Positions 49,438 to 56,814 of a stretch of 58,130 nucleotides of DNA are shown here, piece by piece. Both the position numbers and the translations under genes were made by a program. The stretch's first letter is position 1, and the number at the start of each line of letters is the position of its first letter. Source of the DNA: an uncultured Victivallaceae bacterium (lineage in GTDB: Bacteria; Verrucomicrobiota; Lentisphaeria; Victivallales; Victivallaceae). The notes under the pieces are model-generated. The model was not told the DNA's origin and ran no database searches. It saw only the letters and a program-made list of their open reading frames with translations. The stretch spans positions 1 to 58,130 of the forward strand of contig CALXOD010000020.1 of assembly GCA_944389925.1 (NCBI GenBank). Direction: 5' to 3'.

Positions 49438-52101
49438 TCAGCGCAAAGGCGCCACCCGGTATTCTCCACCGGGCAACCGGAAAAATGCCGTCGTCTTCTC
49501 GGCATCAACGGTAAATTCCCGATTTTCATTCGCTCCGGTAAGCCGCCATTTGCCAGGGGCCAATCCCGCCAGCAAAACTCGGTAAGACGCGTTTTCACCA
49601 GTTTTTACGGTGAATTCCCGCTTGACCGCGTCATTTTCCGTGCCAAGCACCACCACAAAATCCTTGACATCAATCTGGATATTTTCCGCATTCCGTCGCC
49701 AGTTCACCGCCGGAGCCGCAGCCGTCGCCGGTCCCACCGTCATGGCCGCCACAAAAAGATCATCCGCCTGCTTCTTCCGGGGAGTGAACATAGTCCGGAA
49801 CCCTTTCGCCTGCGGGCGATTCGGCACCGGAGCAGTCAGCTGCGTACCAAAAACATTCCAGGTTTCAGGCCCTTGCGCCACGGTCACTTCCGGATTTTCC
49901 GGGAGCAGCATCCGTACCGTCAGTCTTCCGGGACGGGGACGGTCGGTGGTAATTTCCCAGGCGTCACCGTTCTGTTTCGGTTCAAACAACGAATTGAGCG
50001 AATAATACTTGGAAAATTCCGGTTTCGAACTGATCACCCGATCCACCGTCAACAGCACCGCCGGGGTTTCGGCATCACCGATACTCAGGGCGCAGAATGT
50101 CCGGGTGTACGCCTTGATCTTCTTCGAATACGCCGGCGCGAGATCGGATTTAAGATAAGCGTATTCGGGGCGCTGCGCATCCGGCCCGAAATCAGCCCCG
50201 AGGGTGCGCCCGGTCAGAAACTCCGGATCGGTAGTCAGCATTTTCACGCTGGTCGGCGTCCTCTCCACGACTCGCTGTCCGCCGTCATTGGAGGGATTGC
50301 CGCGTCCGAATTTCTCCTGCGGATCGTACACCAGCATTACGTTGTGCGCGATGGAACGCTTGTTGAATCCGTAATCATATGGTGTTCCGGAAAATTTGTA
50401 CATGCCGAGATCGGTCGCGAGATAGCCGCGGTAGAAAATCTGAAACGCCCCGGCATCCACATGCTGGTGGTTGGCGAAGCCATAACCGCCCCCCTTCATT
50501 TCGATGAAGACGTCATTCGAATCCGGTCCGATATCCCAGCCGGTCCGGAAAATAATGGACGGCAGCACATCCCGGAAATAATGCGCGGTCGGCAGCGACT
50601 CCAGACTCTTTTCCGCCTTCAGATCCGGGTCGTTCAGTAACAGAAACAGCAACGGGTCGTCTACCTTCGCACCCTGTTTTTCAAATTCTCCCTTGAACAG
50701 CGGGTCGGCGGCGTAGCTGTAACACATGAACGCCGTCAACGGCCGCCGGAAATACCCCCGCGACAGACTGCCGTCGCCATCCAGCATCGCCGACCCGTCC
50801 GGCAGCCGTCCGTACAGCCAATGAAAATAAACCGTTTTAATCGAAGGATCGAACACCTCCCGTCCGGCCATCCGCCGCATCAGCCATGCGGCATGCATTT
50901 CAAAGGGGAAGCGGTAAGCTCCGTATCCCCAGCCCTGATTATGCCGATTCGAACGGTATTCAAAAGCCCGCATCGGCACTAACTCCTCCAGAATCCGGTA
51001 CGAACAATAGCGATACGGCTCGTCGTCTTCTCCATAAATCGCAATCGCCATCGTCAGCAGATCGCGGTTGACCTGCGCTTCAGCACCGTGCCCGTTCACA
51101 ATGGTCTGCCTGAAGGGCGGCCAGCCGATTTCCATATCATCGGCGATGCGTACTAGATTGCTGCTCATGATGCGCCGTTCCTCCGGCGTCATCAGATCAT
51201 AACAGTAATCATACACCAGCGATCCGGCCATCAGCGCCCGACCGATCTCCCGGGTGATATCCAACAGGTTGTTGAACTGCACCTGGGACAGGTATTCCAG
51301 CATGAAATCGACGGCTTCCCGACCGATCTTCCGATCGCCGGTCATCAGAAATACAAACGCCTTATCCTGTGCCGCACGTTCCAGCTTCGGCTTGTACTGA
51401 ATGTCCTCTTCGGGATCGTACTGATATTCAATCGGCGCGGCAGCAGAGGCCTGCACTTTTTCCCACACGGCCTGGTTCTCGCCCCGCGTCAGATTGCGCC
51501 GGACCCGTTCCAGTTCGGCGGGATTGACCAGCACCCGGGGGTGCTCCGCCGCCGGGACAATCGGCGGCTGATAATTCCGGGCTGCTTTCGGCACTGCCGG
51601 CGGCGTGTAAGGTTCCAATTCAATCCGATCGAGCATCACACCACGCGGCAGCCAGATCTTCAATTCCGAACCGGGTTTCAAATCGTACTTCCCCGTCGTC
51701 TGGAGCGGACGGTTCCAAGGCACATAAACCACTTTCTTGCCGGGCTGGCGATCGTCCTGCTGCACCTGCATGAAAAGAGATTCGTATTTGGTTTTCGCCT
51801 TGGCCATAAGCGCTTCCCCTTCGGCGTCAGTAACGGCGTAGGTTCTCATGACGTACCGCCCCGCCGGCACCTTCACCCGGATCGACAGATCCGGCGCACT
51901 GCCTCGTTCATGCACGCGGGAAGCGACGCCGGAGCGTAAAACCACAGCTCTCCCGTCCTTCGGCAATTTCCCGCTGTTGAGCACTTCCACCCGATCGGAA
52001 TCCAGTTTTGCAGATTCCGCTTCGATTACCGTCGTCCGGGGGGCACCCCATAGCGTCGAAGCCAGAAGGCACGCGCCCGTTGCTGCAAAAATCTTTTTCA
52101 T
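49438..52101 (-). CDS. Exported heparinase II/III-family polysaccharide lyase-like protein
   Basis: 887 residues from ATG 52101 (GGAGAG just upstream). Signal peptide MKKIFAATGACLLASTLWG. An N-terminal beta-sandwich (~20-165) is followed by an (alpha/alpha) toroid with HPRVLVNPAELERVRRNL and NGHGAEAQVNRDLL. The heparinase II/III signature is NHQHVDAGAFQIFYRGYLATDLGMY, and a C-terminal beta-sandwich closes it. Such lyases cleave uronic-acid-containing glycans such as heparan sulfate or alginate-like polymers; substrate cannot be told. Monocistronic, with a strong promoter. Confidence 0.88.
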   Translation of the reverse strand: MKKIFAATGACLLASTLWGAPRTTVIEAESAKLDSDRVEVLNSGKLPKDGRAVVLRSGVASRVHERGSAPDLSIRVKVPAGRYVMRTYAVTDAEGEALMAKAKTKYESLFMQVQQDDRQPGKKVVYVPWNRPLQTTGKYDLKPGSELKIWLPRGVMLDRIELEPYTPPAVPKAARNYQPPIVPAAEHPRVLVNPAELERVRRNLTRGENQAVWEKVQASAAAPIEYQYDPEEDIQYKPKLERAAQDKAFVFLMTGDRKIGREAVDFMLEYLSQVQFNNLLDITREIGRALMAGSLVYDYCYDLMTPEERRIMSSNLVRIADDMEIGWPPFRQTIVNGHGAEAQVNRDLLTMAIAIYGEDDEPYRYCSYRILEELVPMRAFEYRSNRHNQGWGYGAYRFPFEMHAAWLMRRMAGREVFDPSIKTVYFHWLYGRLPDGSAMLDGDGSLSRGYFRRPLTAFMCYSYAADPLFKGEFEKQGAKVDDPLLFLLLNDPDLKAEKSLESLPTAHYFRDVLPSIIFRTGWDIGPDSNDVFIEMKGGGYGFANHQHVDAGAFQIFYRGYLATDLGMYKFSGTPYDYGFNKRSIAHNVMLVYDPQEKFGRGNPSNDGGQRVVERTPTSVKMLTTDPEFLTGRTLGADFGPDAQRPEYAYLKSDLAPAYSKKIKAYTRTFCALSIGDAETPAVLLTVDRVISSKPEFSKYYSLNSLFEPKQNGDAWEITTDRPRPGRLTVRMLLPENPEVTVAQGPETWNVFGTQLTAPVPNRPQAKGFRTMFTPRKKQADDLFVAAMTVGPATAAAPAVNWRRNAENIQIDVKDFVVVLGTENDAVKREFTVKTGENASYRVLLAGLAPGKWRLTGANENREFTVDAEKTTAFFRLPGGEYRVAPLR

Positions 52102-52149
52102 GCATCTCTCCATTTTTTCAGCTGCATCCTTAGAAAGCGAAACGCTGGA

Positions 52150-52178
52150 AATATAACGCCCCTGTTTCCGGATTGCAA
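52150..52178 (-). promoter_or_regulatory. Promoter of the heparinase-like gene
   Basis: TTGCAA (52178-52173), 17-bp spacer, TATATT (52155-52150): a near-ideal promoter. Leader about 45 nt. Direct-repeat pairs lie 40-160 bp upstream. Confidence 0.65.
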
Positions 52179-52216
52179 ATGCCCAAAGAGTCCGAATCCT
52201 TAATTTTTACCCCCCC

Positions 52217-52336
52217 AAAAGTAACATTTTTGTAACTTTTCAGCAGCTTCCACTCCCAACTGCAAGTTCCCACCTTCAAAAATAACATTTTTGCAACAAT
52301 TCTATCCAGAGCGACATTTTTGTAACTTTTTTCTTG
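52217..52336. repeat. Three direct-repeat pairs with 11-bp period (candidate activator sites)
   Basis: Each unit reads (G/A)YRAC-ATTTTT-GYAAC: GTAAC at 52221 and 52232; ATAAC at 52282 and GCAAC at 52293; GCGAC at 52311 and GTAAC at 52322. Within a unit half-sites are exactly 11 bp apart, one helical turn, like the boxes of PhoB/PhoP/OmpR-family regulators. Confidence 0.55.
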
Positions 52337-52405
52337 TAATCAAGTACCTGTTTCTATGCTTTTCTTTCCTGTTTTTATCCTGAAAACGCTCCGTTTTTAA
52401 AAACT

Positions 52406-52430
52406 GGCACAAATCATGCTGTGCCTTTTT
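52406..52430 (+). terminator. Terminator-like hairpin in the gdhA leader
   Basis: GGCACA/TGTGCC (52406-52411 with 52420-52425), loop of 8, then TTTTT. It lies 62 nt before the gdhA start codon, so it could be an attenuator. Confidence 0.5.
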
Positions 52431-52491: not shown

Positions 52492-53835
52492 ATGAATGCT
52501 TATGTTCAGGAAGTTTTGGAAAAACTCTATCAGCAAAAAAGCCACGAAAAAGAATTTCTGCAGAGCGTAACCGAAGTTCTCAGCTCTCTCTGCCCCCTGC
52601 TCGACCGGGAGGACAAATATCGGAAAAATCGGATCCTGGAGCGGCTTGTCAATCCGGAACGTATCATTATTTTTCAGGTGCCGTGGCTCGATGACGCGGG
52701 AGAAATCCAGGTCAATACCGGATACCGTGTTCAGTTCAACAGCGCGATCGGGCCCTACAAGGGGGGACTGCGCTTTCACCCGTCCGTCAATCTGAGTATC
52801 TTGAAATTTCTCGGGTTTGAGCAGATTTTCAAAAACAGCCTGACTACGCTTCCCATGGGAGGCGGCAAAGGCGGCAGCGACTTCGACCCCAAAGGCAAAT
52901 CCGACCGGGAAGTCATGGTTTTCTGCCAGAGTTTCATGCGGGAACTCTTCCGGCATATCGGTCCATCAACCGACGTTCCCGCCGGCGACATCGGCGTCGG
53001 GGCCCGGGAAATCGGCTATCTCTTCGGCCAGTACAAAAAGATCGTCAATTCTTATGACAGCGTCCTCACCGGCAAGGGAGTCAACTGGGGTGGCAGCCTG
53101 ATCCGTCCGGAAGCCACCGGTTACGGAAACGTCTATTTCGCCACCGAAATGCTCCATACCCGCGGCGCCTCTTTCGACGGTCGCCGGGTGCTGATTTCCG
53201 GTTCCGGCAACGTGGCCCAGTATGCGGCCAAAAAAGCCGCTGAACTGGGGGGGAAAGTCATTTCCATGTCCGATTCCAGCGGCACGATAATCGACGAATC
53301 CGGCATCGACGCCGAAAAACTCGCCTTCATCATGGAACTCAAAAACCTGCGCCGCGGCCGCATCAGCGAATACGTCCAGCAATATCCCTCCGCCCGCTTC
53401 GTGCCCGGCGAACGCCCCTGGCGGCTGGCCCCGGCGGAAATCGCCCTGCCCTGTGCCACTCAGAATGAACTGGACGGCGCCGACGCCCGCGAACTGGTCA
53501 AGAACGGCTGCATCTGCGTTTCCGAAGGTGCCAACATGCCGTCCACCTTGGAAGCTACCGAAATCTTCCTCAGCGCCGGCGTCCTCTTCGGCCCCGGAAA
53601 AGCCGCCAACGCCGGCGGCGTCGCCACCAGCGGGCTGGAAATGAGCCAGAATTCCATCCGCCTCAACTGGACCGGCGAAGAAGTCGATCAGCGGTTGCGC
53701 GGCATCATGGTCAACATCCACAACGCGGCACGGCGCGCCGCCTCTGAATTCGGACAACCGGACAATTATGTACTCGGCGCCAATATCGCCGGCTTCCGCA
53801 AGGTGGCCGACGCCATGATCGACCTCGGCATCTGA
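52492..53835 (+). CDS. gdhA: NADP-type glutamate dehydrogenase
   Basis: 447 residues from ATG 52492 (AAAGGATG upstream), exactly the usual GdhA length. [44 protein letters not shown] (catalytic Lys), [22 protein letters not shown] and [13 protein letters not shown] (nucleotide fold) are present. It joins ammonia to 2-oxoglutarate with NAD(P)H. The hexameric small-GDH class is clear; NADPH preference is inferred from the class. Confidence 0.96.
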
Positions 53836-56735: not shown

Positions 56736-56814
56736 CGGGATATAGCGCAGCCTGGTCTAGCGCGTTTGACTGGGGGTCAAAAGGTCGAGAGTTCAAATCT
56801 CTCTATCCCGACCA
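56736..56814 (+). tRNA. tRNA-Pro (anticodon GGG)
   Basis: 79 nt with encoded CCA. Acceptor stem CGGGATA/TATCCCG, D-arm GCGC/GCGC, anticodon stem TTTGA/TCAAA with loop CTGGGGG (anticodon GGG at 56772-56774), T-arm GAGAG/CTCTC with loop TTCAAAT. It reads CCC/CCU proline codons. The DNA on its 3' side changes character, so its 3' end is a likely integration site. Confidence 0.96.

Follow-up and report, generated by a model that had tools for sequence, protein, structure and literature searches.

Repeat pairs upstream of gdhA in an uncultured Victivallaceae bacterium form a predicted sigma-54 enhancer for an activator of the NifA/AnfA/VnfA family

In enteric bacteria the NtrC enhancer of glnA consists of dyads about three helical turns apart, located 100–140 bp 5' of the sigma-54 promoter of this ammonium-assimilation gene, and NtrC itself is a phosphorylated response regulator that recognizes a dyad other than the one described here. 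The boxes that we analyzed upstream of gdhA resemble the glnA sites in layout; unlike NtrC, their candidate activator has a GAF domain. For AnfA of Rhodobacter capsulatus the consensus site is given as TAC-N6-GTA (PMC7294313), and for VnfA of Azotobacter vinelandii the sites are GT(T/A)C-N6-GTAC, mostly two per promoter (PMC9542535). Both resemble our system in combining a GAF-AAA-HTH activator, a dyad of one of these two forms and a sigma-54 promoter 3' of it (PMC7294313, PMC9542535); however, they serve alternative nitrogenases, whereas the candidate targets here are gdhA, glnN, gltB and amtB, and the left half of our three gdhA boxes reads AAC, AAC and GAC rather than TAC. NifA, the best curated family match (TIGR01817) of our candidate proteins, has the upstream activator consensus TGT-N10-ACA (PMC7294313), while the site here is ACA-N4-TGT. 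In Desulfovibrio vulgaris, DVU1949 is a one-component enhancer-binding protein predicted to regulate nitrogen metabolism and transport through nine operons, and DVUA0143 is a plasmid-borne AnfA/VnfA-like regulator (PMC4641369). DVU1949 resembles our candidates as a one-component enhancer-binding protein with a predicted nitrogen role, in a different phylum; in a plasmid collection, our regulator a was most similar to a plasmid-encoded D. vulgaris protein (42% identity), which is presumably DVUA0143. Predicted sigma-54 promoters have also been reported for COG0334 (glutamate dehydrogenase) genes, but for those of Bacillota, and the term Lentisphaer does not occur in that paper (PMC12316311). 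Our searches of the open-licence literature found no on-topic sigma-54 work on Lentisphaerae or Victivallales.

The DNA analyzed here, referred to as the window, is a stretch of 58,130 nucleotides from contig CALXOD010000020.1 of an uncultured Victivallaceae bacterium. An earlier note had described three repeat pairs in it, with an 11-bp period of the half-sites and spacings of 61 and 29 bp, and these are indeed present: the copies occupy 52216-52241, 52277-52302 and 52306-52331, with identities to the first of 85% for the second and 81% for the third, and their half-sites, with 11 bp between halves in each box, are GTAAC/GTAAC, ATAAC/GCAAC and GCGAC/GTAAC. A zero-mismatch search of the 2.8-Mb genome (2,804,345 bases) with ACATTTTTGYAAC returned three matches, all of them these boxes, and thus the cluster is not a product of chance. 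The boxes, read as dyads, and the genes and promoters around them are listed in Table 1.

Table 1. Positions of the gdhA boxes and of the neighbouring genes and predicted promoters in the window
Feature	Position	Strand	Details
Heparinase-like gene	49438..52113	-	NF045571 HepB 435 bits, below cut-off 600; neighbour only
Sigma-70-like promoter of divergent lyase gene	52150..52178	-	TTGCAA-17-TATATT, 9/12 match
Dyad 1	52219..52238	no strand	Core TAACA-TTTT-TGTAA at 52222-52235, centred near -202 relative to the predicted start
Dyad 2	52280..52299	no strand	Core TAACA-TTTT-TGCAA at 52283-52296, centred near -141; the weakest dyad
Dyad 3	52309..52328	no strand	Core CGACA-TTTT-TGTAA at 52312-52325, centred near -112
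Sigma-54 (-24/-12) promoter of gdhA	52405..52420	+	TGGCACAAATCATGCT; GG-N10-GC; about 72 bp 5' of gdhA
gdhA, NADP-specific glutamate dehydrogenase	52492..53835	+	NF006929 749.6 bits, cut-off 536

The earlier note had reported the promoter at 52150-52178 and had missed the plus-strand sigma-54 element, a -24/-12 promoter with GG-N10-GC that lies 3' of all three dyads. From it the gdhA transcription start would be placed near 52430, 12 bp after the -12 element. The dyads are ~85–175 bp 5' of this promoter, with dyads 2 and 3 lying 29 bp (about three helical turns) apart, and the genome encodes RpoN (PF04552 match) as well as activators with a sigma-54 interaction domain. For gdhA the start at 52492 (MNAYVQEV) was preferred over 52483, and relatives begin at the same residue. 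In an alignment of the window with the sister species (G002), 62 of 76 positions are identical within the dyads and the sigma-54 promoter, compared to 145 of 301 in the intergenic DNA outside these elements; dyad 1 retains 19 of its 20 bases there and dyad 2 is represented by TGACATTTTTGTAA. A hairpin (GGCACA..TGTGCC) followed by a T-run at 52406-52425 overlaps the sigma-54 promoter, but an intrinsic terminator was rejected since the sister species and other genera keep the promoter and not the hairpin (by eye), and we take the hairpin as a coincidence. Elsewhere in the window, a tRNA gene (Rfam) at 56736-56811 lies inside a 172-aa frame, and due to this the frame is probably not a gene.

Genome-wide, the promoter pattern TGGCAYN5WTGCW had 24 matches against three for the reversed control. 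In the 23 contexts that we inspected (L047, near a contig end, was left out) many matches fell within long frames, and five were read as lying just 5' of genes, namely gdhA, glnN, clpB, dnaK and an rtcB-like gene; the family assignments of clpB and dnaK were confirmed, and the rtcB-like gene, which adjoins RtcR, was named by eye. The sigma-54 promoters directly 5' of dnaK (C51:13926-13941, L063) and clpB (C26:45808-45823, L051) come without nitrogen dyads, which suggests that the chaperones are under sigma-54 control, with the response regulator on C57 perhaps being their activator. RtcR and the rtcB-like gene with its own sigma-54 promoter (C37:131050-132300; L071, L059) show the classical RNA-repair layout.

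The earlier note had read the boxes as direct repeats of the OmpR/PhoB class. As GTNAC is its own reverse complement, an inverted repeat of such half-sites resembles an 11-bp direct repeat, and in our boxes alone the two readings are indistinguishable. We therefore turned to relatives, taking the 220 bp 5' of 27 sigma-54 promoters (seven of gdhA and 20 of glnN); removal of our own genus left 23, which are related by descent and hence are not independent events. A motif-free search through every spaced pair of trimers, with shuffles giving the expectation, ranked ACA-N4-TGT first, at 22 of these 23 promoters (1.45 expected). The AnfA/VnfA-type dyad TAC-N6-GTA occurred at 16 of the 23 (1.0 expected from shuffles), and our own glnN/gltB dyad also fits this form, while our gdhA boxes depart from it in the left half; in a second test TNACA-N4-TGTNA was likewise found at 16 of 23 (shuffle mean 0.12). 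By contrast, the direct form [AG][TC][AG]AC-N6-[AG][TC][AG]AC was present at one of the 23 (shuffle mean 0.32), so that the relatives do not bear out direct-repeat symmetry with an 11-bp period of one half-site. Nor did the genome scan for GTAAC-N6-GTAAC, which the earlier note had proposed, reveal an enrichment: there were three sites versus ten for the reversed control, hence this form is not a genome-wide signal. Of the two sites outside the boxes, that on C25 has a score of -4.8 with our dyad matrix and is embedded in long frames; that on C37 scores 8.5 and is likewise within open frames, of 153 and 212 codons (unconfirmed as genes). The dyad matrix was built from 43 foreign sites, excluding our genus, and run across the 58-kb window. 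Its top three positions were precisely the three boxes (dyad 1, 17.8; dyad 3, 17.0; dyad 2, 10.2), and the best match outside them scored 6.3.

The same combination of elements recurs at other nitrogen genes. In our genome glnN encodes a type III glutamine synthetase (GSIII_N, 252 bits) and gltB the large subunit of glutamate synthase (1672 bits, cut-off 1047), and the interval between them contains the opposed sigma-54 promoters TGGCACGCGAAATGCT and TGGCACAGAATCTGCT with the dyad TTACAAAAATGTAA between them; opposed promoters were also found in the glnN interval of G002, G003, G020, G014, G010, G006, G021, G023, G007, G008 and G009. Among the 30 glnN loci tested (our own included; 39 genomes have a glnN match), 21 had a sigma-54 promoter, 20 of which also had a matrix match, the exception being that of G023. 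Six other loci were read separately and stand outside these counts; of these, G026 has a promoter but lacks a strict dyad, dyads with no promoter match occur in G025 and G038, and G015, G033 and G031 have neither. For amtB, which was not found in our own genome, there was a sigma-54 match in 22 of the 29 loci scanned and, further upstream of it, a dyad with a score of 11 or more in 20 of the 29. A scan of our genome with TNACAWWWWTGTNA identified four sites (gdhA, glnN/gltB, a LacI-type regulator and one orphan) against two in the reversed control, and in six relatives there were 26 sites against 11. The LacI-type site (C52:2175-2188, L157), a strong TTACAAAAATGTAA dyad between a sigma-70-like promoter and the gene with no sigma-54 element, may have arisen by chance or may mean that the motif has a further use. 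The leader of glnN (L189; also L190), 262 nt from the sigma-54 promoter to the gene, is long and G+C-rich and has two similar segments in our genus; a structured leader RNA was considered and set aside, as the fold was strong but had a z of -0.65 (for a stretch shifted ~40 bases from the leader) and there was no Rfam match.

Four clear enhancer-binding proteins are encoded in our genome (four strong PF00158 matches): RtcR (733 bits, cut-off 650), the response regulator (C57:57009-58070), and two paralogues, a and b, each of which unites a GAF domain, a sigma-54 AAA+ domain and a Fis-type HTH domain, as AnfA/VnfA regulators do, with GAFTGA visible in both. The genes of this pair lie at C30:30836-32386 and C34:15338-16861. 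Their best curated family was NifA, at 469 and 470 bits, which is below the cut-off of 528.85 and does not qualify them as NifA. A search with the nifH family gave no match in our genome at E 0.001, and thus the alternative nitrogenase expected beside an AnfA/VnfA regulator did not appear. The nifH cut-off was exceeded in four of the 41 genomes compared, G005 and G039 having an extra NifA-like copy near nifH; with nifH so rare and our own genome lacking a match, the glnN dyads cannot generally represent a nif signal, and a true NifA with nif targets was rejected. A collinear row (L221) of gltB, gltD and two frames taken by eye for dapF and dapL ends with the gene for paralogue a. A full NifA-like protein was found in 30 of the 41 genomes; in the remaining 11 there was no more than a fragment or activators of more distant kinds. 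A glnN gene with both a sigma-54 promoter and a matrix match occurred in 18 of 22 genomes positive for a NifA-like protein and in two of eight negative ones (p 0.007; such tests of joint presence ignore shared ancestry). The two exceptions with promoter and dyads at glnN, G003 and G032, are 87 and 80% complete.

The distribution of paralogue b goes with that of sigma-54 gdhA promoters. In a tree of the regulators (without rows L174 and L185), group b comprised copies from G000, G002, G006, G009, G010, G014, G015 and G023, and the second copy of G020 fell just outside it. With G020 counted, a paralogue-b copy was present in all eight genomes with a sigma-54 gdhA and in none of the other 19 usable genomes (p 4.5e-7), a comparison that was made post hoc and likewise takes no account of ancestry. 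G014 has paralogue b and no gdhA match, and G017, which lies among the sigma-54 rows of the GdhA tree, has neither paralogue and no promoter or matrix match at gdhA or glnN. A single dyad is located 5' of paralogue b in G009, G023 and G006 (L296, L297, L298) and none in G000, G002 and G020; autoregulation of paralogue b is possible. Half-sites with a G before ACA made up 14 of 38 at gdhA and 11 of 76 at all glnN loci (p 0.009), but against glnN of the same genomes (four of 20) the difference had a p of 0.24, and we therefore regard a preference for TGACA at gdhA and TTACA at glnN as a hint only and reject it as proof of two specificities.

We consider it unlikely that a sigma-54 enhancer is present and is bound by some activator other than the NifA-like pair, for example the response regulator on C57. 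While the genome does have this further uncommitted activator, and three genomes (G029, G027 and G037) have the NifA-like regulator and no promoter match at glnN, the dyad agrees in form with that published for AnfA, its presence and absence track those of the NifA-like proteins, and of the 30 genomes with a full protein of this kind, 10 carry its gene no more than 10 kb from glnN; in our own genome such a gene follows gltBD. We would give a similarly low weight to control, additional or principal, of the divergent heparinase-like gene, which the earlier note had offered as a target. The dyads do lie between the two genes, and in the sister species the lyase gene is still present, as are recognizable promoter hexamers. 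This promoter, near-ideal in the words of the earlier note, is a 9/12 match and is probably not part of the enhancer. A lyase homolog adjoins gdhA at only two of 30 gdhA loci, both in our genus, and six genomes of five other genera (G009, G010, G020, G006, G015 and G023) have a sigma-54 gdhA with two to three matrix matches at each locus and no lyase neighbour. The enhancer therefore goes with gdhA; of what the earlier note proposed, clustered regulator sites with a possible action on gdhA stand, and the lyase gene as the main target does not.

Still less probable is that the dyads serve as operators for a repressor or for a nucleoid-type protein acting at gdhA and other nitrogen genes independently of sigma-54. 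After exclusion of three gdhA rows with too little or masked upstream sequence (L016, L033, L039), a sigma-54 element with dyads was found at eight of the 27 usable gdhA loci (eight genomes, our own included). Matrix matches occurred at 14 gdhA loci, six of which lack the element (G034, G012, G013, G007, G008 and G027), and thus dyads can occur without such a promoter; those of G007 lie 53 and 72 bp before the gene, and the strong dyad before the LacI-type gene of our own genome likewise has no sigma-54 match. Against an action independent of sigma-54, the dyad core is upstream of the sigma-54 element in all but one of the 23 foreign promoters, and a spacing of ~28–33 bp between paired dyads recurs. 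The gdhA matches without a sigma-54 promoter, such as those of L017 (G034), L038 (G007), L041 (G027) and L027 (G012), may be remnants or may indicate a different mode of action. The weakest reading, in which OmpR/PhoB/PhoP-class boxes act by way of a sigma-70 promoter to activate gdhA or the lyase gene, has in its favor the 11-bp half-site distance and the sigma-70-like lyase promoter 40 bp from the boxes, but was dropped as highly improbable given the inverted form in relatives, the unenriched GTAAC-N6-GTAAC, the enhancer-type layout of boxes recurring at nitrogen genes with sigma-54 promoters, and the lack of a lyase gene beside gdhA outside the genus.

We thus think it probable that the boxes are the upstream enhancer of a nitrogen-controlled gdhA, acting through an activator of the NifA/AnfA/VnfA family and a sigma-54 promoter. 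As predicted from sequence, a protein of this family, with GAF, AAA+ and Fis-type DNA-binding domains, would bind each dyad as a dimer, oligomerize, loop out the intervening 85–175 bp and, at the expense of ATP, convert the closed complex that sigma-54 RNA polymerase forms at 52405-52420 to an open one. The dyad binders would be the NifA-like proteins and their effect would be activation, the signal presumably being the nitrogen state, sensed through the GAF domain or a partner. The same regulator group would serve glnN, gltB and, in relatives, amtB, which would place gdhA in an ammonium-assimilation regulon; with no nifH match in our own genome, an AnfA-like site and activator would here have assimilation targets. 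On the GdhA tree the sigma-54 label has to change about six times, and hence the gdhA enhancer has been repeatedly gained or lost. Paralogue b would act at gdhA and a at glnN/gltB, and we tentatively propose, as a conjecture that may well prove wrong, that in Victivallales a duplicated AnfA/VnfA-type activator replaces NtrBC, with a (behind gltBD) driving glnN/gltB, and b recruited for the sigma-54 gdhA and lost together with the gdhA enhancer.

These results propose, for an order whose members are mostly uncultured, a concrete circuit of nitrogen control, and suggest that dyads and regulators of the AnfA/VnfA type are not confined to nitrogen fixation. If an activator of the NifA/AnfA/VnfA type does work in assimilation here, a family that switches nitrogenases would have a role in the absence of any nitrogenase. 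If paralogue b governs gdhA, a gene duplication and a promoter change could be traced together across species, with G017, G007 and G008 as candidate natural cases of loss.
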